A stretch of DNA of 64,000 bases, from IMG/VR virus record IMGVR_UViG_3300020034_000007, positions 16,909 through 80,908 of that record; one strand, written 5' to 3'. Shown here piece after piece: positions 3,433 through 44,245 of the stretch. The notes beneath the pieces were generated by a model. That model was not told the origin of the DNA. It searched no databases and saw nothing but the letters and a program-made list of their open reading frames with translations. Position 1 is the stretch's first letter; every line of letters begins with the position of its first letter. Source of the DNA: a virus. The position numbers and the translations under genes were made by a program.

Positions 3433-4461
3433 TTACGCGATGGTCGCGCGACCTGTTTTGGCAACGGAAGTCATGATCGGAGTAGCAGGCACAGGACGAA
3501 TAGCCTGAATATCAATACTCGGCTCGATGATATCGTCACCACTCGGACTGAAGTTATAAGGCTTCAGAATCGACTGAGGGATAGTAAAGGCAATCTGCTG
3601 GGCCGTCAACGGAGTACCTGCGACAATGTTCTCATAAGTAGCAACGTTAATAACCAGAGCTTGCTTTGTCGGAATACCACCAGGCGCAGTAGCAGCAGCC
3701 GTACCATATACGGCCTGGCGCCACAGTGCACTATCCTGCTGGCGAATCGTAACGCTGGCCGTAACTTCACGACGCTTCGGGACAACACTTCCAAGGTAAA
3801 GACTACCCAGACGGAAGTCAGTATCATCGAAGTTATTGTTGATATCTAGGCTGAAAGACTTCGCCGGAAGAGTCACACCGTTGTAAGTCACTGTAACATT
3901 CGTACCGACGATCATCGGCAGGCTGTCAAACAGTGCAGTCGGAGTATTCATGTCGGTTGGGGTAATACCCGCAACCTGCTTCAACGCGATGAGGCCAGCG
4001 GTACCCATAAGGTAACCGTCAGCCGCAGCTTCCAGGTGAAGCGTATTGACGACTGTGTCCGTGTAGTCGAAGCACTCCAGACCGGCACCAATGAGCTCCT
4101 CGACCGAGTAATACGGAAGAGCGGCAGCATCGGAAGGTGTGATCGTATGAGTCGTAATACCCGTCGTGGTAACCTGAGCAGTCGTCCCCATGCAGGCATA
4201 CAACAGAGATAGGAACGACTCTATGCGGGCATAGAAGTCGTAGCTACCAGACCACTTAACGGGCCCCAGGTAGGAGTCCGTAATATCGCGACCGCCACCG
4301 ATCTCGGGGTCTGGGATCATAAGCGTTCGGTCGGTGCCAAGCGATCCACTGCGAAGCTTAATACCAATACCCGCAGTCGCAATGTCAGAAGCAAATGTCC
4401 CAAGGACAGACTGCTTGCGAAGCAGAATGTGGCCTGGCTGTGAAGAATACCCTGCCGCCAT
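3433..4461 (-). CDS. Major tail (tube) protein
   Basis: 342 residues, rich in Thr, Ala, Ile and Asp and predicted mostly beta, typical of siphovirus tail tube proteins. The central part contains the SLDINNNFDDTDFRLGS-type segment seen in tube proteins of actinophages. The position just upstream of the chaperones supports the call. The gene ends close to a 19-bp hairpin, consistent with separate high expression. The family cannot be named beyond tail tube; a decoration function is less likely from gene order. Confidence 0.82.
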   Translation of the reverse strand: MAAGYSSQPGHILLRKQSVLGTFASDIATAGIGIKLRSGSLGTDRTLMIPDPEIGGGRDITDSYLGPVKWSGSYDFYARIESFLSLLYACMGTTAQVTTTGITTHTITPSDAAALPYYSVEELIGAGLECFDYTDTVVNTLHLEAAADGYLMGTAGLIALKQVAGITPTDMNTPTALFDSLPMIVGTNVTVTYNGVTLPAKSFSLDINNNFDDTDFRLGSLYLGSVVPKRREVTASVTIRQQDSALWRQAVYGTAAATAPGGIPTKQALVINVATYENIVAGTPLTAQQIAFTIPQSILKPYNFSPSGDDIIEPSIDIQAIRPVPATPIMTSVAKTGRATIA

Positions 4462-4463
4462 TA

Positions 4464-4796
4464 TTAGCTGCCCTTCTTCTCGTCAGCCTTTACGTCACCG
4501 TTAGGCTTCTGTAGTACCTCGGATGAGGTCGGCACAGGAGGTGCAGACACCTCGGCGGGTACGACAGGCCCGGTGACTGGCGGCTTCTCGGAAGCCTTGA
4601 CACGTTCTTGCATCTCGGCAATTTGCTGGTCCAAGGTCTTACTCTCATTAACCAGCGCAACGCCATCGATCAAGCGCTGACTGCCGTAAAGGTTCTCGGT
4701 CTCTTCTGCTTTTAGAAGAGCAAGCTGTTCACGCTTCTGCTCATTCTCTGAACGAAGGTAATCGAGGTCTTCGTCAGTAGGCAGGTTATCAGGCAT
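4464..4796 (-). CDS. Hypothetical protein, N-terminal coiled coil
   Basis: 110 residues. Residues ~8-70 are Glu/Lys/Gln/Leu-rich with heptad-like spacing, predicting a coiled coil; the C-terminal 40 residues are Pro/Val/Lys-rich and probably disordered. The start overlaps the end of the preceding gene by 8 nt, and it stops 2 nt before the major tail gene, so it belongs to the tail module. No family recognised. Confidence 0.75.
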   Translation of the reverse strand: MPDNLPTDEDLDYLRSENEQKREQLALLKAEETENLYGSQRLIDGVALVNESKTLDQQIAEMQERVKASEKPPVTGPVVPAEVSAPPVPTSSEVLQKPNGDVKADEKKGS

Positions 4797-5292
4797 TTAC
4801 TTTCTCAACCTCCAACATAAGATCGTTAGTGCAAAGGTACAGGTTCTCGCCGTTGACCTGGTTATTCCTATACCTTCCAGCCCTGACCCAGAACCTCTTG
4901 AGTCTCTTGATCGTTCCGTTCAGAGTCGCTGTAAGTCCGCCCAATTGTTGCCGTAGTGGGGGGTCACTGCCAAGGATAGTGCGTAACGTTTCGGCCAGCA
5001 CTGCATGCCAACTCAGACCAATAATCTCATCTGAATGCCGAACAAACCCTTGCACCATGATCGAGTACATTTCAAGCGTAGGACTGCGCGCGAAATCCAC
5101 TCCCATCATCTCCTGTGAATTCGGAGTTGGCAGCCAGTTGTCAGCCCAGACACCAATCGAGAAGTTAAGATCCTGCGTACGTAGTGGACGCTTAAGAACA
5201 ATCAACCTATCATCTTCCATGGCAAACCGAGCAGCGACGAGCTGGACGACGTTGTTAGGAAAGATAGATCCATTGTCAAAGTCAATTGGCAT
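4789..5292 (-). CDS. Probable tail terminator or neck protein
   Basis: 167 residues. It sits between the virion-morphogenesis protein and the tail tube genes, where siphoviruses encode the tail terminator (gpU-like). The sequence has alternating hydrophobic strands and the segment WADNWLPTP, and the start overlaps the stop of the upstream gene by one base. The call rests mainly on gene order; no decisive motif. Confidence 0.6.
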   Translation of the reverse strand: MPIDFDNGSIFPNNVVQLVAARFAMEDDRLIVLKRPLRTQDLNFSIGVWADNWLPTPNSQEMMGVDFARSPTLEMYSIMVQGFVRHSDEIIGLSWHAVLAETLRTILGSDPPLRQQLGGLTATLNGTIKRLKRFWVRAGRYRNNQVNGENLYLCTNDLMLEVEKVNA

Positions 5293-10978: not shown

Positions 10979-12178
10979 TTAGTCTGGCAGCACCTTGTAG
11001 GTAAGACTATACTCCATGAACGGAAACACTGGGAACGCCTTAATACCAGCACCCTTGACGTGCATCCAGGGGTCTCGCGTCTCATCTTCCCACTCGTAGT
11101 AACCTGACTGCCAGTTACCCTCCGGATGAGGAGCCGTCAGCGTCTTAGCGAAGCCGATCTGCGTATCATCCACCTGGTTCAACTGCTCCGCATCTGGAAG
11201 CAGAATCACCTTGTTATCCGAGGTGAATCGGTTATTGACAAACGTAGACGAACCCAAGGCACGGGTACGGTAGACGCTGTCATAAACCTTAAACGAGACA
11301 CCGGTTGACTGCTCCAGGATCTGAAGTGCAGCCTGCGGGCCAAAGCCCTGAGCAACGTAGTTCAGGTCAACCGGAGCAACGGACGGAAGAGCGCCAATGA
11401 AAGGCGTAACCGCAGCAGCAAACCTGCTTGACTTCCAGAAGGCATGCAAGATGCGCCGCGAAATGTAACCACGGTTAACCGTGATCTTGTAGCGATCCCA
11501 CATCAGCTGATTGATGGCCAATAGGTCACCAATCGGATCACAGGCCGGCAAGTCCCAGTTAGCAGGACCAGCACCAGTCACACCAGTCAACGCTGGCAGC
11601 TGTGTAGGCGTTACACTGTTCTGGTCATCCGGACGCCCGTACTTGACGTTAAACTTGATCTTACCATCGTTGTACGAGATCATGTTCGTCTCAAGTGCCG
11701 TCATGATCAGCCACTCGAGCCGATTGTCGAGCTTGCGACGACGAAGGGCATCGTGGCGAGCAACTCGAGCCTGGAAATCGGCAACAGTACTGCCGATGAA
11801 TCCCTGCGCAAGACTGAGACTGTTGATGCCATTGAGTTGCGCAGCAATTAGCAGTCCATCACGGAACCGAGTTACATCCGAAGCAGTGTACTTATCCTTA
11901 AGGCTCCAGTCGATCAGACTGGCGCGGCCCTGGACGTACGCTCCCTCGTCCTTCTGGGCGAGTTCAGCTTCGGCGTCCTCGGCGCGAGCCGGAGCAAGAC
12001 CTTCCTGAAGACCACCCTTGATGTAATCAAAGATCACATCGTCGGTAGCAACCTCCATGAAAGGTGCAATCTCAGCAAGACCGATATGGTCCTCTGGAGG
12101 CAGCATCTCTCGAATAGAACCGAGAGACACCTCCTTGCGGACCAGCCGCTCAAACGGCGGGAAGGCAGGCGCGGTCAT
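10979..12178 (-). CDS. Major capsid protein (gpE family)
   Basis: 399 residues, the size of lambda-E-type capsid proteins. It has an N-terminal helical region with an acidic segment, a central NWDLPACDPIGDL stretch and the C-terminal DNKVILLPDA segment, all in the order found in the phage major capsid protein E family (HK97 fold). The neighbours are decoration protein and ClpP-like protease upstream and connectors downstream. AAGGAG precedes the start at 12-nt spacing. A hairpin follows the stop, consistent with very high expression. Confidence 0.88.
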   Translation of the reverse strand: MTAPAFPPFERLVRKEVSLGSIREMLPPEDHIGLAEIAPFMEVATDDVIFDYIKGGLQEGLAPARAEDAEAELAQKDEGAYVQGRASLIDWSLKDKYTASDVTRFRDGLLIAAQLNGINSLSLAQGFIGSTVADFQARVARHDALRRRKLDNRLEWLIMTALETNMISYNDGKIKFNVKYGRPDDQNSVTPTQLPALTGVTGAGPANWDLPACDPIGDLLAINQLMWDRYKITVNRGYISRRILHAFWKSSRFAAAVTPFIGALPSVAPVDLNYVAQGFGPQAALQILEQSTGVSFKVYDSVYRTRALGSSTFVNNRFTSDNKVILLPDAEQLNQVDDTQIGFAKTLTAPHPEGNWQSGYYEWEDETRDPWMHVKGAGIKAFPVFPFMEYSLTYKVLPD

Positions 12179-13043: not shown

Positions 13044-14366
13044 TTACTTCTTAGCCGCAGCTGCAGCTTCGAGGCGCACCATATCCTGATAGGACTTGGT
13101 CTTGGCCAGATTCTCCTCGCTCATGTTCTGCAGGCGGTGAGTATTAACGATCGCCTTAGCAATAGCGAGCTCGTCGTTCACCTTCTGTACATCAGTGTTA
13201 GCCGGGTCAGTCGGCGCTCCGGTATCCTGGACGCCATGTCCGGCAACAAGTGAAACAGGAACTGCAGAATCATACGAGGCCTTGAAATTGGCAAACTGCT
13301 CATCCGACAACGAGAGCGCTAGCTGCGTCAGGGGATCTACCTGAGTAGCCACGATCTTGGGATGGTCACCCTTGGCCAGTTCTTCCACGAAAGTCTTACG
13401 ACCGGTCTCAAGCTGCTCCTTCTTGAAGGTAGCAAGGACTCGGTTGTTCGATTCGAGCTGTGTAATGTGCGCCTGAACCTCGGCCGCATCCGTCGTCGCC
13501 TTACCGCTCAAAGTGAAGGCAACAGACTGAGCCGCAACAGACTGCGGCACGACTGGCTGAGGAAGAACAGGCGGGGCAGCCGGAGTAGGCGGCTGCACGG
13601 GCGCAGGCTGAGTGTTGTTCGGTGCAGTCACACCAGGCTCCTTTGAGGTATTGAAAATTCTTGGTGCTGGGGCATCCTGGCGACCCGCATGTGCATAAAT
13701 GCTAAGGTCCCAGTTATTCTTCGCTTGCTTACTATCCTTCTTTTTCTGAGGCTTGATTGTCTCGTCTGCAAGCCCTGCAGCAACAGCCTCCGCACCTGTA
13801 TACCAGGTTTCGTCGGACATTGCCTGCTTCCAGTCATCAATCGAACCACCAGCAACATTATGATAAACCTCAGCAATATTTTGATCCATCTTGTCAAGGT
13901 CATCAGCAAACGTTCGCATCTCGTTAGCATTGCCAAGTACAATCCCAGATGCGTTGTGAATCATCATCTGGGATGACTCTTCCATCGAGACCTTATCGCC
14001 CGCCATAGCAACAATTGATGCGGCCGAGGCTGCAAGGGCGTCAACAATGACATGTACATAGGCATCATGCTGACGCAAGGCATTCTTCATAGCGATACCA
14101 TCAAAGGCGGCACCACCAGGAGAGTTAAGATGAAGCTCGATAGTGTCATCATCAATCTCCTGAAGCTGATCGATGAATGACTGAGCAGTCGTCCCTTCGC
14201 CCCAGAAGTTACCACCGATACGGTCGTAAATATAGACCTGGGCAACGGTCCCGCCATTGTTTTCCTGGCGAGCATTCTTGACGACTCGATACCAGTCCGG
14301 CACATCCTGCTGCTGCAGGTTAGCCATCCGCCTGATTCGCTCTTGCGGGTCTCGAAGTCCAGTCAT
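13044..14366 (-). CDS. ClpP-like head maturation protease with scaffold region
   Basis: 440 residues. Residues ~40-210 are a ClpP/S14-type protease: HLNSPGGAAFDG oxyanion segment, LAASAAS with probable nucleophile Ser114, and MMIHN with His137; an Asp of the DDLDKMD region may complete the triad. Residues ~225-300 are a Pro/Gln/Ala-rich linker and ~300-440 are helical, fitting a fused scaffold. The protein trims head precursors during procapsid maturation. An alternative start is Met14. Confidence 0.88.
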   Translation of the reverse strand: MTGLRDPQERIRRMANLQQQDVPDWYRVVKNARQENNGGTVAQVYIYDRIGGNFWGEGTTAQSFIDQLQEIDDDTIELHLNSPGGAAFDGIAMKNALRQHDAYVHVIVDALAASAASIVAMAGDKVSMEESSQMMIHNASGIVLGNANEMRTFADDLDKMDQNIAEVYHNVAGGSIDDWKQAMSDETWYTGAEAVAAGLADETIKPQKKKDSKQAKNNWDLSIYAHAGRQDAPAPRIFNTSKEPGVTAPNNTQPAPVQPPTPAAPPVLPQPVVPQSVAAQSVAFTLSGKATTDAAEVQAHITQLESNNRVLATFKKEQLETGRKTFVEELAKGDHPKIVATQVDPLTQLALSLSDEQFANFKASYDSAVPVSLVAGHGVQDTGAPTDPANTDVQKVNDELAIAKAIVNTHRLQNMSEENLAKTKSYQDMVRLEAAAAAKK

Positions 14367-14413: not shown

Positions 14414-14689
14414 CTAGACGCCGGTTACGGTTCTGCCCAGAACAGACTCTGGAGTAGCATCTTCACGAAGGAACGCACCGCTCTGCTTGGTGAAAATAAC
14501 TCTATGCCAGCGAAAACATTCTCGACAACGAATATGAATCTCGCCATCGTAATGCAAAGTCTCTCCGTAAATACGGTGCTGCTTGTATACCTTCACGTGG
14601 ACATAAACGCGCCCTCGTTCGTCAATCCCATAGACTGCAAGCAATGGCTTGCGTGCACAGAAGCAACTCAATGGCTCCTTAGTGGCCAT
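14414..14689 (-). CDS. Small zinc-ribbon protein (Com-like)
   Basis: 91 residues from ATG 14689, whose start overlaps the end of the portal gene. It has SCFC near residue 10 and RCRECF near residue 55, a CxC/CxxC pair spaced like a zinc ribbon, and a basic C-terminal half. It resembles small Mu Com-like zinc-ribbon proteins. It sits between portal and protease; role in packaging or regulation unknown. Confidence 0.65.
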   Translation of the reverse strand: MATKEPLSCFCARKPLLAVYGIDERGRVYVHVKVYKQHRIYGETLHYDGEIHIRCRECFRWHRVIFTKQSGAFLREDATPESVLGRTVTGV

Positions 14690-16382
14690 TTTCCGCCTGC
14701 GCCATCTCGCCCTCAAGTATCTGCGAGAATCGCGCCTTAAACTCCTCAGCATTGGGAAGGTAGTCTGTACCTAGAGCTGTGACATCACGAGCCCATCCGT
14801 CCAACCGTGCGTAAAGCTGATTGGTACGCTGAGCTGCATTCACAATTCCCTGAGAAGCAAAGGCATCTTCCATGCGTCGCTTGAATCCAAAATTAACTCT
14901 CATGTCAGGACCATATCGATCTTCACGATAGGCATTCTCTACCTGGCCATTGACGCGCTTGAGAATCTCATTGCGAATGTCGGTCATCTGCGCGTTGCTA
15001 GCCTTGCCGTTCTTTGACGGCGCTGGCACAGGCTTGGTGGGATCAGCATTTGGATCTGCGTTAGGGTCAGCATTTGGATCAGGCTGAGGAGCCAGCGTCT
15101 GCTGAACTTCACTAATCGTCAGTCCAGCCATCTCGCCTAGCTGCTCGGTATCGAATTTTATCTTATCCTTACCAATAAGCGCCTGTAGAATCATCTGCAG
15201 CATCATAGCGTTAGCATTATCAAGCTTGTTGAACTTGATCCTTATCTTAGGTGGGTTAGCACCAGGGTAGTTAAACTTAGCCATCGGTGCCAGGATATAC
15301 TTGTCGATGTACTGTGCGCGATCTGCATTCAATGCGTTCAACATCCACAGATACATCTGCATATGGCCGACGCCGAGGTTATAAGAACCAACATCAGCTG
15401 TTTTCATCAGCAGAACAGGAGTAAAGATGGCCAATGAAATCTCTTCATCCAGTCGCTGCATATAGCGCTCGAAATCTGCGCCACGCATCTGTGCTTCCAA
15501 ATATTGCATGTCGTAATCAAAGTACCCACGGCCTGCACTATCCTGCTCACGGTCAGCAGGAAGAACCACGACAGAACGATTTCGCAGCTGCATAAGCTGA
15601 GCCAGCATAAACTCCGAGGAGTTCATACTCGAACCGTCTGGCAAGTCTACAGTCTCACCGAAGGGTGCACGCCCTACCGGAGTCGGCTCGCCGAATCGCT
15701 CATAGTACCTGTTGGAATACAGATGCATAAGCATCGAGAAGAAGTAAGAAGTGTAAGCAGACTTGAGCAGCTTCTTGCCATAGTAATTTCCGTTCTCCAT
15801 GAGAATAGAAAACCAGAACGAGTTCTCTGGCGGAATCGGGCGAGGCCAGCCGAACTGAATGATACCATCATACACTGGGATCTTCGGTGGAACATTCCCA
15901 GGAGGCGCCCAACCGTCGACCTCTTTCCAATTAACCGCACAAGTCTCCGGAATGAGGTCCTTAATCTTCGTAAGGACCACAGCCCTGCCGTCGACGTCAT
16001 TCTCCCACTGAAGTACATTCGGAGAATAGCCGGCCCAGTGCGCCTGTGACATTGCGCGATTCAGCTGGGTCCAGATATTTTCAAGCTGCTCAGTACAGAG
16101 GTCACGAAGCTTCTTGTTATCACACTCAATCGTCCAGTTGGACTGATGTAGCATAAAACTCAGAACCGCCAGGGATGAATTCACCTGGTAGTGCTGGGTC
16201 ATCGTGCGGTAATCCGCAAGGGTGAGCTTCTCTAAATCGAACTGAACAATGCCGCCGCCGGGCAGCTGCAGGAAGTGATTGTACCTCTCTCGACCACTCC
16301 AGTTACCGAACTTTTCACCAAGCTTCGGTGGAGCTGTCTTGACGTTCTGTATAGGATTACCATGATGGTCAAGAAGAGGCAC
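14679..16382 (-). CDS. Portal protein
   Basis: About 567 residues from GTG 16382, preferred because AGGAG lies six bases upstream; an upstream TTG at 16427 would add 15 residues and has poor spacing. The body has portal-like alternation of helices and strands, with MTQHYQVNSSLAVLSFML early, GRAPFGETVDLP in the middle, and a C-terminal Pro/Asp-repeat linker (PDPNADPNADPNADP). The protein forms the dodecameric channel at the capsid vertex. It overlaps the terminase stop by 14 nt and is flanked by terminase and protease. Confidence 0.85.
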   Translation of the reverse strand: MPLLDHHGNPIQNVKTAPPKLGEKFGNWSGRERYNHFLQLPGGGIVQFDLEKLTLADYRTMTQHYQVNSSLAVLSFMLHQSNWTIECDNKKLRDLCTEQLENIWTQLNRAMSQAHWAGYSPNVLQWENDVDGRAVVLTKIKDLIPETCAVNWKEVDGWAPPGNVPPKIPVYDGIIQFGWPRPIPPENSFWFSILMENGNYYGKKLLKSAYTSYFFSMLMHLYSNRYYERFGEPTPVGRAPFGETVDLPDGSSMNSSEFMLAQLMQLRNRSVVVLPADREQDSAGRGYFDYDMQYLEAQMRGADFERYMQRLDEEISLAIFTPVLLMKTADVGSYNLGVGHMQMYLWMLNALNADRAQYIDKYILAPMAKFNYPGANPPKIRIKFNKLDNANAMMLQMILQALIGKDKIKFDTEQLGEMAGLTISEVQQTLAPQPDPNADPNADPNADPTKPVPAPSKNGKASNAQMTDIRNEILKRVNGQVENAYREDRYGPDMRVNFGFKRRMEDAFASQGIVNAAQRTNQLYARLDGWARDVTALGTDYLPNAEEFKARFSQILEGEMAQAENGH

Positions 16383-19290
16383 GATTGCTCCTGTCAGTTC
16401 GGAGATGACTCGGGAAGTTAACGCCAAACCTCTCGCCCGCTGACTGCGCTGGAGCCTTCAGTCCACCACTGCCAGCCTTGCGTACCTGTGCGATTAGCTC
16501 TGCGAAACCTTCGCTGACACCTTCGGTATGCTGACTAGTATCACGTCCTCCGTACCCGGAGTCCAGTGATGACCGCAACCCACGCCGGTATGAACGATCT
16601 CCAATCAAGTTAGAAACAACACCTGCTAATGCATCCGCTACGTCCTTTGATCCCTTAAGTGGATGATCTACCTTGCGACCATCAGTAGAAAGTTCCATCA
16701 ACTCCTTGATGACGATCTTGACAGCTGTATCATCACCCTTGTTAATAAACGTCATATACGGAGGAAACTCTAAACGCTCCTCATAGATTGCATCACGCAA
16801 ATCCTCGTAAGCAATCATGTTCTTGTCTACAGATAGATCATCTACCCAGAACTTCTTCTTGCGAAGTTGTTGCTTTGTATCCTGCGACTGGAAACCATCC
16901 ATCGATATCTTCTTGAGACGGAATCCAAACTCATCACGAAGTCTATAAATGACACGTCGCACATCACCAAAGAAGATTTCCGTACCCGGCATTGCTTTCA
17001 GTCTACCGAGGAAATCGATAACAATGAGTGGCTTTAGCTCACCATCAACCTCTGTCAATTCAGCAACGTGACCCATGACAATTCCCAGCGCATCCCCTTC
17101 GGAAGAATACGCATAGTCGATATGCATATTGCGCTTGCGTGGATCATCGTGCCCACGGAACCAATCTTCGAATTCCAACACCGAGGGATTAATGCCTACC
17201 GGAGAAACCTCACCGTGTCGCTCTATCCATCGTTCCTCGCATAGCTCGATCTTGTCCACCAGTGAAATGAACGGATCACTCACCGCTGGTGGAATACCAG
17301 CTAGGTCACGCAGTGCCTTCTCTGGATTATTTTCAAAACTCTTCTGAAACATTGTCGGAATCTCCAACAGTGTCTCAATTTTACCGGGCGCCAACATTGC
17401 CCCAACCATCTTAGGGATAATCTGACGACGCTTGAAATCGTAATAGAATGAATTACGAGTACCATCATCTGCTGTATAACGCGCCCACCCCAACGACTCC
17501 CACAGAGTCATACGGCAAGTATAAGCATTCGGATCGGTAGTAAATTCAGCAAACTTCTTGGACGCAAATCCATTGGCCTTCTTCATCTGACCAATACAAA
17601 TCAGCAATCCTCTATCTTCGAACCGCGAGAAAATCCTTCCATGGATCGTGTCGTAGCCTACCTCAGCATAATCCTTATCCTTTGTTTGCTTGTGAGAATC
17701 CATCTCGTCTAGAATCCCACCAAGGATGTTATAACCTTCGAACGTTGTTTCAGATGAGTCACCAGGAAGAATCCAAATATCCTTCTGGGGAAATCGAATC
17801 TGCTTAGTGAACTTCTCGTCATATGGAGCATTCTCAATAAACCAAACAGAGTGCTTAATACGAGCGAAAATGTCACCGAAGATAACTTCACGAGCATTTG
17901 TCTCGGATGTCGACATCTGCATGAATGCAATACGTGACCCAGGAAGCAGGCTGAAGTAATCCTGCGGATCATTCAAGCAGAGCACCCAGTGCACCATATA
18001 AGGAATAGCGATCGAAGCTAAAGTCGTATTATGCGTAACTATAAAGTCTTTGGTCACATAGAGCTGATCTAATGCATCTACCTTAATACAGCGACCTGGG
18101 CCACGGTCAATCTTTTCAACCTTAACTATCGATCTCGCTGGTCGCTGATTAGTTCTAGGACTCCAATTAGCGACTTTGCGAGGTAGACTAAAGGGGCACT
18201 CCTGATCCATATTCAGATGGACCTGATACTCCATAACTCCTCTACGGTCGAACTTCGTTACAGTGCAATACCCACCGAGAGAACGAACTAACTCTGCTAC
18301 ATCATCAGCAAGTTGTCTAGAACTTGTAGAGTACACTTGAGTATTTTTGCCGAAAGCCGATCCGTCATTATCCATCAAACCACGTAGCAATTCCCAGCGA
18401 TCCTGAATAGAAGCGCGCAAATAAATCTCGGGTATAAACTTCTCGCAAGAAGATTTACCATATAATTCCAGTGCCTCTAGCGTATTCAGAATTGGGTTAG
18501 AATTCAACCTTCGCAGAGTGCCGTCAGCCTTTATCGTAAACTTCAGATACCCTCCATCTGTTAAATGAACAGCATTTTTTCTTAGGAGTTCTTCAAGTCT
18601 ATCAGCATTCCATCTATCCTGCGTGCTAAACGAAATACTTCTCCGTGTCATTCCACCATTAGCCAACAAGGCACCTAGAGCCCAAGGATGAATTGGAAGT
18701 TCACCCTGATACTCATATTCTACAGGAAGTACAATTGGAATTCGATACTTGTAGTTACTACCGGCAAACTGAAGTTGTTGTCGACTTAAGTACTCCGTGG
18801 TTACAACTTGAGACTTAAACTGCCCGTATGAACTCTTGTAACTGACTTTCCAAAGATGATCGGCACCTGCGTCTACCCAAGTACCATCCTTAAAGGAGAG
18901 TCTGTAATATTGAATATCTTCGTTATCAAAAACACCAAGAACTTGTGTTGCCTTTCCATCGCTTCCTATTACAGAATCACCAACTCTGAGTGCTCGATTT
19001 TCTACCCACCCGGTCGGTGTTAAGATTAATTCTTCCGGACGCAAATTCTTGCCGATACCAATAGCACCCGTAAAGATAGCACGCTGTACCTGAGCAATAC
19101 GATAAGTACTTACATCCTTGCCGAAGATTTCAACGAGAGCCTGTCGCACGCCAGGTCGAATCTTGGACGCAATATCCAGGTAACCTACACCGAGAAACTC
19201 TTCGATGGTCGCCGGCCGTTGCCAAAACTCGGGATGATCCTTGAGCCACTGAAGCTCGTAGGCAGTTCTGACTGGATCAAACTCGGTCAT
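16369..19290 (-). CDS. terL: Terminase large subunit precursor containing an intein
   Basis: 973-residue precursor. Residues 75-81 (GAIGIGK) and 422-423 (TT) form the Walker A P-loop of the packaging ATPase, but are separated by a 340-residue intein (82-421). After splicing the mature enzyme would be 633 residues. Downstream segments match TerL: LDEMDS (Walker B-like, GGILDEMDS), DPFISL, and the nuclease-type MHIDYAYSSEGDALG with acidic residues. The enzyme translocates and cuts phage DNA at the portal. Unspliced protein would be inactive, since the P-loop is broken. AAAGGAG is 11 nt before the ATG. Confidence 0.92.
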   Translation of the reverse strand: MTEFDPVRTAYELQWLKDHPEFWQRPATIEEFLGVGYLDIASKIRPGVRQALVEIFGKDVSTYRIAQVQRAIFTGAIGIGKNLRPEELILTPTGWVENRALRVGDSVIGSDGKATQVLGVFDNEDIQYYRLSFKDGTWVDAGADHLWKVSYKSSYGQFKSQVVTTEYLSRQQLQFAGSNYKYRIPIVLPVEYEYQGELPIHPWALGALLANGGMTRRSISFSTQDRWNADRLEELLRKNAVHLTDGGYLKFTIKADGTLRRLNSNPILNTLEALELYGKSSCEKFIPEIYLRASIQDRWELLRGLMDNDGSAFGKNTQVYSTSSRQLADDVAELVRSLGGYCTVTKFDRRGVMEYQVHLNMDQECPFSLPRKVANWSPRTNQRPARSIVKVEKIDRGPGRCIKVDALDQLYVTKDFIVTHNTTLASIAIPYMVHWVLCLNDPQDYFSLLPGSRIAFMQMSTSETNAREVIFGDIFARIKHSVWFIENAPYDEKFTKQIRFPQKDIWILPGDSSETTFEGYNILGGILDEMDSHKQTKDKDYAEVGYDTIHGRIFSRFEDRGLLICIGQMKKANGFASKKFAEFTTDPNAYTCRMTLWESLGWARYTADDGTRNSFYYDFKRRQIIPKMVGAMLAPGKIETLLEIPTMFQKSFENNPEKALRDLAGIPPAVSDPFISLVDKIELCEERWIERHGEVSPVGINPSVLEFEDWFRGHDDPRKRNMHIDYAYSSEGDALGIVMGHVAELTEVDGELKPLIVIDFLGRLKAMPGTEIFFGDVRRVIYRLRDEFGFRLKKISMDGFQSQDTKQQLRKKKFWVDDLSVDKNMIAYEDLRDAIYEERLEFPPYMTFINKGDDTAVKIVIKELMELSTDGRKVDHPLKGSKDVADALAGVVSNLIGDRSYRRGLRSSLDSGYGGRDTSQHTEGVSEGFAELIAQVRKAGSGGLKAPAQSAGERFGVNFPSHLRTDRSNRASS
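18028..19047 (-). other. Class 3-type intein inside TerL P-loop
   Basis: 340 residues. The N-terminal block (NLRPEELILTPTGW, RVGDSVIGSDG) matches intein block A, but residue 1 is Asn instead of the usual Cys or Ser. Trp66 (ADHLWKV), Cys320 (GRCIKVD) and the Thr after Asn340 (VTHN|T) give the W-C-T triplet that defines class 3 inteins, in which the block F Cys is the nucleophile. A LAGLIDADG-type endonuclease domain is present: LGALLANGG (~residue 124) and LLRGLMDNDGS (~220). The first motif has Asn where the catalytic Asp belongs. Confidence 0.88.
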
Positions 19291-19929: not shown

Positions 19930-21378
19930 CTAGAAAGGCAGGTTGGGCATCGGTACCACGTTGGGCGGACTTTGCCTGCTGGTGGTATCGACACTGCTGA
20001 TAACAGTTCCTTCGACTTCTCTCGGTTGAGCCCCACCACGAGTCAGAATCCCTTCAATCATCTGCGGAGAAATTTCATCCCGCTTGTAGCCCTGTTGTTC
20101 CAACTCGCGAATCGCGGCGGCGACAATCTGACGTGGATCACCAAAGGCAATCGAAGCATTACCGCCTGAACCAACATTAACCTGAACCTTCGGCGACCGA
20201 AGAGTCGGATCAATCAGCTTCGCCAGGTGTTCACCCTGATCAGAAATGGTCTTAGCAATACGAGTCACTTCAGGATCAAGACCCATATACTCTTCCATCT
20301 CCAGTCCCTTTTCTAGCCGATTAGACTGGATCTGTACTACCGCAGCCAGGCCATCGATAATCGAATCGACATCACGAGTACGAAAGTAGGATGAAAGTTC
20401 CTTCGGCTCAGACTTAGGCACAGTACATACCGACCCTTCGCGATAGAACTTACAGACTACATTAAATGAACAGGAATTGCAAACGTACTTATCTCCCGGC
20501 TTGGGGTCTAGCTTAATCTTACTCTTAGAATTCCTCATAAACAGATTTAAAGATTCTTCAGGTTCGTAATTCGCATCTGGTGTACTACTGTCAACAGTAC
20601 TAGATTTAAAGGATAACTTGATATCCTTGTTAAAGTATTGAGACCCCCACCGAGCTGCACGGATATTAAACATACATCGATTGCGAGGATCCATAAGATC
20701 GACTGGCTTGAATCCCATAAGGCGAATCCACTCACGGTATGGCTCTACGTTCTGCTTTGTTGGATTCAGCAACTTTCCAGTAGGAAGATGAATCTCACCC
20801 ATCGCAGCACGATTCCTGGCCTCCCAATCAAAGGCCTTGAATCCAATACGATTAAGAAGCACCCACCCTGATGGTCCATGGATGTGCAAAATAGCTTCTG
20901 GGTATTCATCCTGAAGCTCCTTGCAGAACCTCAAAAACATCTTACCTGGACCCATCTTAAGATCAGGAAAGTTCATCACAATAACTCTATGTTCCTGACC
21001 ATAAACTGGACGCTCCAAGACGTCAGTCTCATCGTCTGCGCAAAGTTCAAGATCTTTACCAACATCGTTAGCCATATAGCTTTCAAGTACAGCCTCATCC
21101 TCGCCATATTGCCAGGTTGGATAAACTGCAATGGGATCATGCTGTGTAGGACTGTACTCAGCTGTACCCTGTGTTCCACAGACCATAAGTCTATAAGGAA
21201 CAGTAGAGCCGCCGAAATAAAGGTTAGCCCATCCCTGAACATCTTTAATCTTCTTGCGGACAATCCAGCCGTAATCAAAGATTACATTTCGCTCGTTACA
21301 CTCTAAGAGTTCTTTGATATAATTGGACGGATTCCGCCACCAGAGTTCGCTAGTCACGTAAGCCACCGTAACCGCCAT
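19930..21378 (-). CDS. Conserved protein with Cys cluster and NLPF C-terminus
   Basis: About 482 residues from ATG 21378; a TTG at 21393 is the alternative. Residues ~25-230 resemble a phage family with conserved YGWIVRKKI, WANLYFGGSTVPYRLMVCG and LHIHGPSGWVLLNRIG segments. Residues ~305-325 contain CNSCSFNVVCKFYREGSVC, a likely four-Cys metal site. The C-terminal tip reads PNLPF, similar to SSB-type interaction tails. It starts the leftward late operon next to the divergent region, 16 nt inside a 15-bp hairpin. Function unknown. Confidence 0.75.
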   Translation of the reverse strand: MAVTVAYVTSELWWRNPSNYIKELLECNERNVIFDYGWIVRKKIKDVQGWANLYFGGSTVPYRLMVCGTQGTAEYSPTQHDPIAVYPTWQYGEDEAVLESYMANDVGKDLELCADDETDVLERPVYGQEHRVIVMNFPDLKMGPGKMFLRFCKELQDEYPEAILHIHGPSGWVLLNRIGFKAFDWEARNRAAMGEIHLPTGKLLNPTKQNVEPYREWIRLMGFKPVDLMDPRNRCMFNIRAARWGSQYFNKDIKLSFKSSTVDSSTPDANYEPEESLNLFMRNSKSKIKLDPKPGDKYVCNSCSFNVVCKFYREGSVCTVPKSEPKELSSYFRTRDVDSIIDGLAAVVQIQSNRLEKGLEMEEYMGLDPEVTRIAKTISDQGEHLAKLIDPTLRSPKVQVNVGSGGNASIAFGDPRQIVAAAIRELEQQGYKRDEISPQMIEGILTRGGAQPREVEGTVISSVDTTSRQSPPNVVPMPNLPF

Positions 21379-21691
21379 ATGGACTAGAAGCAAAGTATTG
21401 CCCGGTAAAAAATCCGCGACGCTCGGACCTTACCGGGCAATACTTGTCTAGGAGATGCTAGGCGGGGAGGGTCAGTCTCGACACCTCCCTCCCCGCCTGC
21501 AGGTGGCCTACCCCTGGGGTGGGTCTGCGCATTGCCTACCCTACACGTGCGCACGCGGACCCCGCAACGGCCGACACGCCGGACCCGTGGGCCGCGTGGA
21601 CATGATCACCCACCACCCGATAGGCTAGGGGTCCGCGCTTCGCACGCGCGAATTTAACAACGGGCCAAATGGTCTATCTGGGGAGACAGCC
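21379..21691. promoter_or_regulatory. Divergent regulatory region with two hairpins
   Basis: About 310 bp between divergent operons. Perfect hairpin 21394-21408/21430-21444 (15 bp) overlaps the leader of the leftward gene. A second hairpin 21460-21471/21487-21498 (12 bp, very GC-rich) follows. From 21500 to 21650 the DNA is unusually GC-rich with a 9-bp inverted repeat (21555-21563/21628-21636). No clear -35/-10 pair was found for either direction. Confidence 0.65.
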
Positions 21692-40088: not shown

Positions 40089-41672
40089 GTGGAGACCACC
40101 GAGAAGAAGTCTTGTGCGAATTGCCCCTCGCGCCTGACTGCTGTTCAGACCGTACGATTCTTCGGCAAGACGATCGGGGCAGATATGTGTGCCCAGTTTG
40201 GTACCGTCTTGTCACGGCCAGGGTTGAACCGTAAGGCGCTCGATGGACTCCAAGAGCGTATCGCCCGCGACTGTAATAGTTATGGTCAGCCTGCCCCGAC
40301 ACTAGTAGCTCACACCAAGGCCTTTGTTCCCAAGGTAGCCGAGCCCAGTGATGCCTACCCACCTTCCATTCAGGGTGACGGTACCCCCGGTGATATTCGT
40401 GTACGTGCTTGTACTCAGTGCAAGTGGTTTCTCACGCAGGAGAAGGTTGGCGAGAAATTCGGTTGGCAGTCTGGTCTATGTCAGGCTAAGGGCCAACTCG
40501 TCATGCCCCACCTCACTGCCGAGACAGCACGCGGCTGTCAGCTGTCAACGCTGGGATCACCATCTGATCTTCACGTAGACCTTATCGACTTCTATACGCC
40601 TGACTACTACCACGTAGACATCTTCAAGAGCTACGGCGCTGGTGTTGATCATCCCCTGACCTACGTTACTGATGTTCCCGTGTCAGAAGAGGATACCGCC
40701 GAGGGTATCATGGCCTGGCGACGCATCGAAGATCCCAAGTCATCTAAGTTTGTCATGCTGCCGATCTACGAGCCCAGCCAGTTCAACGAGGCCGACAAGG
40801 GCAAGATCCCTCAGCCTGGCGATGACGAGCACCCTGAACTCTATCTGGATTACGGTAACAACGTGTACAAGGTGGCCGTTCTCTGGCGCGCACTCGACGA
40901 AACTCCCATGGCGTTCGGTCCGGCAGGAGTAGGTAAGACTGAATTAGCCCGCCACATGGCTTATTTGATGCAACTACCGTTCGAGCGGTTCAGCATCACA
41001 GAGTCAACCGAGGTTGACGACCTCATCGGCTACACTCGATACACACCCGAGAAGGGTACCTTCTTTCAGCGCGGTCGCTTGCCCCTCGCTTGGGAACGCA
41101 AGTGCGTCATGCTCATTGACGAACCAAACACAGGACAGCCTGCAGTTTGGCAGGCACTCAGGCCACTGACAGATAATAGCAAGCAGTTAGTGCTAGATAG
41201 TTCCTCCGGGGAAAGGGTTGAGCGGTCTAGTCATACCTACCTGATGATGGCTGCTAACCCTGCCTGGGATCCTCGTAACGTTGGAGCCAATCAGATTGGG
41301 GATGCTGATAGCTCGCGACTGATGCATATTAGATTCAGTCTACCACCAGAGCTTCTCGAGAAGAAGATCATCGCCGCTCGAGTGGCACTGGATAACGATA
41401 GCTACAAACCGCCACTCGATCAGATCATGGCGGTTGCTCGCGAATTGCGAGCACTGTCAGAACAAGGTACACTGCCGATCTCGTGGGGTATTCGTGTCCA
41501 GATCAAGGTTGCACGTGCCATGGCTTGGTTCTCTCCGGTCCAGGCGTACAAGCTCGCAACCGATGACCTGGAGCCGAGTGTCCAGTCGACAGTGCTTGAC
41601 TCAGTCAAGGGACACTTCGCCGACGATCGAGACGAGGATGATGATGACGACGTCAGAAAGCTTGACTACTAA
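40089..41672 (+). CDS. MoxR-like AAA+ ATPase with zinc-binding N-terminus
   Basis: 527 residues, GTG start. Two Cys clusters lie in the N-terminal third (CANC at 9-12; CTQC at 108-111 with later Cys131 and Cys150). The AAA+ core has Walker A GPAGVGKT (277-284), Walker B MLIDEP (341-346), and sensor Asn390, in the MoxR/CobS subfamily. MoxR ATPases act as chaperones with a VWA partner, and one is encoded two genes downstream. Acidic C-terminus (DEDDDDD). Probably remodels a host or phage complex (inference). Confidence 0.85.
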   Translation: METTEKKSCANCPSRLTAVQTVRFFGKTIGADMCAQFGTVLSRPGLNRKALDGLQERIARDCNSYGQPAPTLVAHTKAFVPKVAEPSDAYPPSIQGDGTPGDIRVRACTQCKWFLTQEKVGEKFGWQSGLCQAKGQLVMPHLTAETARGCQLSTLGSPSDLHVDLIDFYTPDYYHVDIFKSYGAGVDHPLTYVTDVPVSEEDTAEGIMAWRRIEDPKSSKFVMLPIYEPSQFNEADKGKIPQPGDDEHPELYLDYGNNVYKVAVLWRALDETPMAFGPAGVGKTELARHMAYLMQLPFERFSITESTEVDDLIGYTRYTPEKGTFFQRGRLPLAWERKCVMLIDEPNTGQPAVWQALRPLTDNSKQLVLDSSSGERVERSSHTYLMMAANPAWDPRNVGANQIGDADSSRLMHIRFSLPPELLEKKIIAARVALDNDSYKPPLDQIMAVARELRALSEQGTLPISWGIRVQIKVARAMAWFSPVQAYKLATDDLEPSVQSTVLDSVKGHFADDRDEDDDDDVRKLDY

Positions 41673-42121: not shown

Positions 42122-44245
42122 GTGAGTTTCGGCAGCAGAATCCCAAATGCGCCCAAGACAACGCTCGATGATCGGGCACGCAAAGCAGTGCGTAAGTTCT
42201 ACACCATGCTGCCAACTCTCAATGCCTATGTCCGTACGATCAGTGGTAACCCAAAGGTATGTATCGAGGTCACTGCAGACAACGGAAGCTCGACTCGTGA
42301 TCGAATTTACTTCCGACCGCCGCTAGCCTTAGGTGACGATCTGGTTCACACTGAAATGCTATGTGACGAGCGTGATTCAGATGGCATTCAGATGTGCGAC
42401 GCATGCAGAACTCATGAGCACATCATGGCCGTCATGTATCACGAGATTGGTCACATCGCCTTTGGTACGCACTCCAAGCCAGCACTCAAGCATGTCCAGG
42501 AGGTTCGCACCAAGGCTAATTGGTTCTCGCCCAAGGACTGGGATGACGTCAGAACGTACAATGAATTCAACAAACGCCTGAAGGCGTTACCTGACGCTGA
42601 CCATTCGTACATGTTTCTTGCGAATGTGACACACCCTCACCTTGGCCTTTTGTACAACGCGACCGAGGACGCCCGTGTTAATGAAGCGGTGTTCAACGCG
42701 CGGCGTGGCGTGCGCGCCATGTACGACGCGCTAACGGCCGAAGTGGTCCGGGATGGTGTACCCAACCCAGATAACCCTGAAGAGTACACACAGTGGCGCG
42801 ACATGTCTCTCGAGTTTCAGATGATGCTTGCAATCAGCTATCAGCTGCAGGGACAGAACGAGAAGTACTCAGGCCTGTTTGCTGAGAAGATCTATGAAGA
42901 CCTGGAAAACGAAACACTTCAGAGGCACCTCGGGACATGGACAGCCGATACGTCAGCAATGGGTAACCTGAATTTCACTCTCGAGTTGATGAAGATTCTC
43001 AACGATATGGGTTACCTTATCAAGGACAACAAGGAGGAACCAGAAAATGACGGCGGAGATTCTTCCGGGGAAGACAGTCCTGGCGACGGGAATGGTGAGC
43101 CATCATCAGGGAAAGGATCACCTCCCGTATCAGACTCTGAAGATGAAGGTGAGGATTCCGGGGGGAAGGATGGAGACGATCAACCTGACTCTTCTGGAGA
43201 TCAGGACGCAGATGCTTCTTCTGACGGGGACGATAGCGATGATTCGCCGAGTCCCGGCTCACCTGAGGACAAAGCGCGACCAGGAGGCAATTTCGATAAT
43301 GTCAAGGTCTGTGTCGCCGAACAGCTAGAGCCGGACATGAAGGATGCTGATCTTAACTCCGAAGATCCCGCTGAACGCAAAGAAGCCCAGCGCCTCATGA
43401 AGGCGATTGAGTCTGCAATCAGTCAGGTAATTCACTTCGAGAAGGCTTCAAGGCATATCTACGGTGTTGAATTCATCGAGCATGGTACTCACTACTGGCC
43501 CGAAGATGAGACACAGACTCCTGAAGTTGACAGTGCTGCACTGAATCTTTCCATCCTACAGGCACGTGTAACGTTTGATAACAACAAGCGTAAGCGCAAG
43601 ATGCCTAACCTTAAGGCTGGCAAGGTTACGCCTTCAACACTAGGCAAGCGTGCCGCGCTAGAGGATGATCGGCTATTCCACAAGACCATCATTCCTGGTC
43701 GTCGAGATTACGATGTCGTCATAGGCATGGATATCTCAGGTTCAACAGCTGGTCGCAATATCGTCCTAGAGAAGAATGCAGTCTACGCTCAGGCAATGCT
43801 GCTAAGTAGACTGGGCATCACGTTCTCAATTTACGGTCACAGTGGATCATCTAACCTGATGATCTGGAAGATCAAGGAACGTCATGACCAGTGGGACACC
43901 AAGACCATGAAGCGCCTCATGGACGCGGACGCCTGTGCGGCAAACCTCGACGGCCATGCACTGGAATTTCTTCGTAAGCGTTCTAGTGAGGGTCAGGCTA
44001 CAGATAAGATCATCATGTATTACTCTGACGGCGCAATGCCGATGGAGAATTACAAGGAAGAATTGGAGATTCTTCAGCGCGAGATTCGTACCTGTGCCCA
44101 GCAGAGGATTACCCTGGTAGGTGTAGGCATCCGGACAGACAGTCCTACGAAGCATGGACTGGATACCGTACGGGTCGATTCACCGGATGATCTTAAGTTG
44201 GTCCTGCTACACCTGAAGAAGTACCTACTCAAGAAGAGGGCATGA
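42122..44245 (+). CDS. VWA-domain protein with HExxH-type motif (CobT-like)
   Basis: 707 residues, GTG start with AGGAGG. N-terminal part includes Cys92/Cys95 and YHEIGH (His107-Glu108-His111), a zinc-metallopeptidase motif. Residues ~310-390 are an acidic Ser/Asp/Gly-rich linker. The C-terminal third is a von Willebrand A domain with MIDAS DISGS (Asp537) and later conserved acidic residues. It resembles CobT/VWA partners of MoxR ATPases; the metal-binding MIDAS would contact the ATPase. Whether the HExxH is catalytic is unproven. Confidence 0.82.
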   Translation: MSFGSRIPNAPKTTLDDRARKAVRKFYTMLPTLNAYVRTISGNPKVCIEVTADNGSSTRDRIYFRPPLALGDDLVHTEMLCDERDSDGIQMCDACRTHEHIMAVMYHEIGHIAFGTHSKPALKHVQEVRTKANWFSPKDWDDVRTYNEFNKRLKALPDADHSYMFLANVTHPHLGLLYNATEDARVNEAVFNARRGVRAMYDALTAEVVRDGVPNPDNPEEYTQWRDMSLEFQMMLAISYQLQGQNEKYSGLFAEKIYEDLENETLQRHLGTWTADTSAMGNLNFTLELMKILNDMGYLIKDNKEEPENDGGDSSGEDSPGDGNGEPSSGKGSPPVSDSEDEGEDSGGKDGDDQPDSSGDQDADASSDGDDSDDSPSPGSPEDKARPGGNFDNVKVCVAEQLEPDMKDADLNSEDPAERKEAQRLMKAIESAISQVIHFEKASRHIYGVEFIEHGTHYWPEDETQTPEVDSAALNLSILQARVTFDNNKRKRKMPNLKAGKVTPSTLGKRAALEDDRLFHKTIIPGRRDYDVVIGMDISGSTAGRNIVLEKNAVYAQAMLLSRLGITFSIYGHSGSSNLMIWKIKERHDQWDTKTMKRLMDADACAANLDGHALEFLRKRSSEGQATDKIIMYYSDGAMPMENYKEELEILQREIRTCAQQRITLVGVGIRTDSPTKHGLDTVRVDSPDDLKLVLLHLKKYLLKKRA

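Follow-up and report, generated by a model that had tools for sequence, protein, structure and literature searches.

Inteins that interrupt the P-loop of a large terminase subunit (TerL) have been described in phages. The published insertion site TerL1-a lies between the Lys and the Thr of the motif (PMC5050341), and five representative TerL inteins from other phages, including the P-loop intein of BAKA at the TerL1-b site, were all readily spliced in E. coli; the BAKA intein also cuts DNA (PMC5050341). Class 3 inteins are known to splice via the Cys at position F:4, as demonstrated experimentally (PMC5222942), along an established pathway (PMC5222942, PMC7664689), and the T of their WCT triplet is the residue at block G:5 (PMC5222942). 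The DnaB inteins of Mycobacterium smegmatis (DnaBi1) and M. chimaera (DnaB1) (6bs8, 6rix/6riy) share with the intein described below the WCT triplet and the splicing fold predicted for it, and DnaBi1 is likewise inserted in a P-loop, at GK-S (hyphens within motifs mark insertion points). They differ in that their host protein is the replicative helicase and that DnaBi1 has no endonuclease domain, starts with Ala1 and carries the redox partner Cys48. The yeast VMA1 intein, PI-SceI, has the same architecture of HINT and LAGLIDADG domains, but belongs to class 1 (Cys1).

The window analysed here is a stretch of 64,000 nucleotides (positions 16,909 to 80,908) of the virus record IMGVR_UViG_3300020034_000007 from IMG/VR, which comprises 80,908 bases. 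Its terL precursor ORF (16369..19290, minus strand, with an ATG start and the stop codon included) encodes 973 aa and is composed of an N-extein, an intein and a C-extein. The N-extein (19048..19290, minus strand) corresponds to TerL residues 1-81 and ends with ...TGAIGIGK, which is Walker A through its Lys, while the C-extein (16369..18027, minus strand, stop included) begins with Thr+1-Thr, the remainder of Walker A, followed by the remaining ATPase and the nuclease domain. Between them lies a class 3 intein of 340 aa (18028..19047, minus strand; NLRPEELILTP...DFIVTHN), comprised of ORF residues 82-421 and inserted in frame between GAIGIGK and TTLASI, so that the insertion point is GAIGIGK-TT, between the Lys and the Thr of Walker A. 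Removal of this block leaves a TerL of 633 residues. Comparison by tblastn with L002-L007, six homologues that lack the intein (extein identity 56-70%), showed the alignments breaking at residues 81-82/422, and all six homologues display GxIGIGKTT without a gap at the insertion point; many class 3 inteins of phages align with 98-100% of the length of the 340-residue block. On these alignments the insertion is far beyond chance. An initial annotation of the window, made from the sequence alone, had given exactly these coordinates, lengths of intein and spliced protein, and insertion point, as well as Asn1 and Cys320.

A group I intron was rejected as an explanation, the insertion being in frame, free of stops and of intein fold, and an assembly artefact was rejected on account of same-site homologues in independent contigs and in one sequenced isolate. 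The Pfam family Intein_splicing (PF14890) gave no match in the record, and LAGLIDADG_3 alone scored above the Pfam cut-off; the missing match is taken to mean that Pfam covers the splicing domains of class 3 inteins poorly, and not as counter-evidence to an intein. No further inteins like this one were found in the same 80.9 kb record.

The host protein is identified as TerL because intein-free homologues of the ORF match phrog_2, the PHROG terminase large subunit (approximately 1e-20), and because the predicted structure of L002, whose extein is 70% identical, has the large terminases of HK97, T4 and D6E as its best PDB matches in Foldseek. This confirms the initial annotation, in which the intein interrupts Walker A of a genuine TerL. 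The identity was tested on intein-free homologues and on structure since the precursor's own PHROG terminase matches are mostly intein-driven; sequence searches with the extein against Pfam and the PDB gave no useful match. The neighbours of terL on the same (minus) strand are a small-terminase-like gene (19930-21393), the portal gene (14679-16427), a head protease gene (13044-14366) and the major capsid protein gene (10979-12178), an arrangement typical of packaging modules that likewise points to TerL. A pseudogene was rejected: the ORF is intact, and the extein is under purifying selection when compared with L002 (dN 0.24, dS about 2). A scan of genomes with the TerL alignment detected one relative, in a Thioalkalivibrio MAG, and megablast found nothing matching this region among GenBank phages. 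Elsewhere in the window, two neighbouring genes on the plus strand (40089-41672 and 42122-44245) form a CobS/CobT-like pair, with the PHROG names ATPase/porphyrin biosynthesis and cobalamin biosynthesis protein.

The splicing domain of the intein is divided over an N-terminal (HINT) part with blocks A and B (intein residues about 1-99; 18751..19047, minus strand), delimited by alignment to the class 3 inteins 6rix/6bs8, and a C-terminal part with blocks F and G (residues about 301-340; 18028..18147, minus strand), delimited by class 3 alignments. Residue 1 is Asn and provides no Cys/Ser/Thr nucleophile, and the same-site relatives have Gln1 or Asn1. The WCT triplet consists of Trp66 (B:12; 18850-18852), Cys320 (F:4; 18088-18090) and Thr338 (G:5), and is accompanied by His64 (B:10; 18856-18858), His339 (G:6), Asn340 (G:7) and a Thr at +1; Thr338-His339-Asn340 (VTHN, block G) occupy 18028-18036, all on the minus strand. 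Together with the alignment to class 3 inteins over nearly their whole length, these residues uphold the class 3 assignment proposed at first. The Trp, Cys and Thr+1 that had been named as its triplet are all present, but the T of WCT is Thr338 rather than the +1 residue. In an alignment of 10 diverse class 3 inteins, that of the window included, His64, Trp66, Cys320, His339 and Asn340 are invariant. Among 80 further viral relatives, which were sampled for an intact second LAGLIDADG motif, all 80 have the equivalents of His64, Cys320, Thr338, His339 and Asn340, 79 that of Trp66, and 76 a T or S at +1. Furthermore, His64, Trp66, Cys320 and Thr338 align with His65, Trp67, Cys118/124 and Thr137/143 of the M. 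smegmatis / M. chimaera DnaB inteins, and the final His and Asn align likewise. Departures from the WCT triplet were observed in Vibrio phages 12VC501 (L187) and D456 g1 (L194): the class 3-like inteins that interrupt a terminase and a gene labelled DarB-like antirestriction have Asn-Ile or Ile for Trp at B:12 (HINIV).

An AlphaFold2 model of the intein with its endonuclease domain had a mean pLDDT of 92.3 and a pTM of 0.92. Its best PDB matches in Foldseek were the intein-endonucleases TliVMA and PI-SceI (TMq up to 0.74), followed by the class 3 DnaB inteins 6riy (TMt 0.83) and 6bs8 (TMt 0.81, both over the smaller chain), in agreement with a HINT fold. By analogy with the class 3 pathway, Cys320, activated by His64 and Thr338, would attack the Lys81-Asn82 peptide bond, and the N-extein acyl group would pass on to Thr+1; cyclisation of Asn340, aided by His339, and an O-N shift would then release the 340-aa intein and leave a complete TerL of 633 aa. 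In the precursor the Lys and the Thr of Walker A are 340 residues apart, and therefore neither ATP hydrolysis nor DNA packaging is expected before splicing; the precursor, having no working P-loop, should be inactive.

With GIGK-TT in a large terminase, the insertion is of the TerL1-a type. Class 3 inteins at GK-S/T of TerL were also found in Clavibacter phages CN1A and CMP1, Salmonella phage 65FD, Klebsiella phage K64-1 and mycobacteriophage Rakim, and the TerL inteins of BAKA and Minerva are class 3 as well, located one residue beyond this site. Judged by its site, Rakim probably represents a TerL1-a case. The mycobacteriophage TerL1-a and TerL1-b inteins resemble that of the window in interrupting the P-loop of TerL and, for Rakim and BAKA, in their class 3 residues as read here; they differ in belonging to another TerL branch, in an intein identity of only ~28-34%, in an intact GDG in motif 1 and, for TerL1-b, in lying one residue past the Lys-Thr site. 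Gordonia phage Gmala1 (KP790009) possesses a homologous TerL (~50% identical), named only TerL in its record and interrupted at the same GK-S/T site by an intein with the class 3 Trp and Cys, which is 48% identical to that of the window and also lacks the motif 1 Asp, but has Gln in place of Asn1 and Ser in place of both Thr338 (G:5) and Thr+1. The published TerL1-a site and the recurrence in GenBank phages refute any novelty of a class 3 intein at the TerL P-loop.

Class 1 inteins (Cys1) were observed elsewhere in the same TerL of related Gordonia phages: near Walker B in GMA3 (L097) and GordDuk1 (L098), and a little downstream, at N-TIHGR, in GordTnk2 (L099). Inteins at two further sites thus make this family of TerLs a hot spot for inteins. 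A class 3 intein is also present in GX15bay (L010, Caudovirales, MK557849), in a PhoH-annotated gene directly before a portal-annotated gene; its flanks do not look PhoH-like, and the PhoH label may stem from similarity to the intein.

The distribution of the element was examined with a tree of the exteins of 79 distinct TerLs of this family, 75 of which have an uninterrupted P-loop. The four P-loop intein carriers, namely the window, L001, L092 and Gmala1, are found at four separate places, which are forced by well-supported branches. When 96 class 3 inteins were placed in a tree, those of the four carriers constituted one clade (97/89), within which the window and L001 are joined with 100/100 support; the L092 intein forms a long branch and its placement is the least sure. 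This L092 element (4211-5227) is a same-site class 3 intein with Asn1, in which both LAGLIDADG motifs are degenerate and the splicing residues intact. Used by itself as query against viral contigs, the intein detected no relative, and a three-member alignment used as query found only L001 and Gmala1.

The LAGLIDADG homing-endonuclease domain (intein residues about 100-300; 18148..18750, minus strand) was delimited with Pfam LAGLIDADG_3 and an HMM alignment to PI-SceI. In motif 1 (ALLANGG) the catalytic Asp is replaced by Asn130 (18658-18660, minus strand), which aligns with Asp218 of PI-SceI, whereas Asp228 of motif 2 (GLMDNDG; 18364-18366, minus strand) is retained and aligns with Asp326; of the catalytic acidic residues in the two dodecapeptide motifs only Asp228 is thus kept. 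Replacement of the motif 1 Asp by Asn should abolish or cripple double-strand cleavage; a literature search for the effects of this replacement provided no usable data. An Asp is present at this position in 78 of the 80 sampled relatives, a sample picked for its intact second motif. The Asn recurs in two of the three same-site relatives (L001 and Gmala1) and further in GX15bay and the P-loop inteins L134 and L156. Overall, the substitution was observed in the window, L001, L008, L010, L134 and L156, mostly P-loop inteins, with the domain conserved.

Taken as a whole, the locus is very probably explained best by a mobile, selfish class 3 intein that interrupts a phage TerL at its P-loop. The distribution fits such an element, and movement of one site-specific lineage would be its simplest reading: inteins specific to the P-loop site would have passed from one TerL gene to another among related phages, with homing and gene conversion as the presumed route, and at a site in an essential motif they would be hard to lose save by precise deletion. 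That the intein was instead present in the ancestor of the TerL family and lost many times, with inteins evolving more slowly than exteins, is highly improbable; the shared site, the single intein clade and the possibility of precise losses are compatible with it, but it requires many independent precise losses, and slow intein evolution does not explain why the inteins of the window and L001 (74% identical) are far closer than their exteins (54-57%) while window and Gmala1 show ~50% identity in both. The sequence is conserved, and synonymous sites are saturated between the compared sequences, for which reason the transfers cannot be dated. Since the endonuclease lacks its first catalytic Asp, it is doubtful that the element homes through a double-strand break of its own making, and the transfers could have occurred by ordinary recombination. 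Compatible with splicing and with past mobility, the intein might also be decaying, its endonuclease dead and awaiting loss or shrinkage to a mini-intein. This is possible though doubtful: the Asn that the window shares with L001 and Gmala1, and the loss of both motifs in L092, point to decay, but between the window and L001 the endonuclease domain is 76% identical (86% in its second half, dN 0.15, dS saturated or >2), which is conservation at least matching that of the N-terminal splicing part (67%). The recurrence of the motif 1 Asn across inteins may rather reflect a functional variant, and it is conceivable, if unlikely, that a LAGLIDADG active site altered in this way still supports homing, for instance by nicking or by drawing its metal ligand from a different residue. 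Alternatively, the enzyme may be dead but retained on other grounds.

Apart from its mobility, the intein had been suggested, from its position and class together, to exert conditional control on packaging, with redox state, metal or host physiology restraining splicing until conditions are right. We consider this very unlikely. The one well-characterised precedent is the P-loop class 3 intein DnaBi1, in which a Cys48-Cys118 disulfide mediates inhibition by H2O2 (PMC6195587); the nucleophile is likewise a Cys here, and the interrupted P-loop should be inactive. The intein of the window, however, has Cys at 201, 261, 284 and 320 only, and Cys320 is the sole Cys of its splicing domain; with Tyr47 at the position of Cys48, a disulfide of the DnaBi1 type is impossible. 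Moreover, 75 of the 79 TerLs are intein-free at the site, which argues that packaging needs no switch, and the TerL inteins from other phages cited above spliced readily in E. coli. The combination of position and class is not rare, insertion between Lys and Thr of TerL having been published, and packaging control is not supported by any positive evidence.

The locus is hence a well-supported but ordinary example, of which both the splicing class and the site were already known, and which does not reveal a packaging switch. It represents a clean case of one class 3 lineage spreading through the TerL genes of phages that are related to one another and for the most part uncultured. With inteins in one clade, exteins scattered and many empty sites, homing and endonuclease selection can be studied at a single site, and Asn130, in an endonuclease that is conserved and transferred, is an oddity that can be tested.
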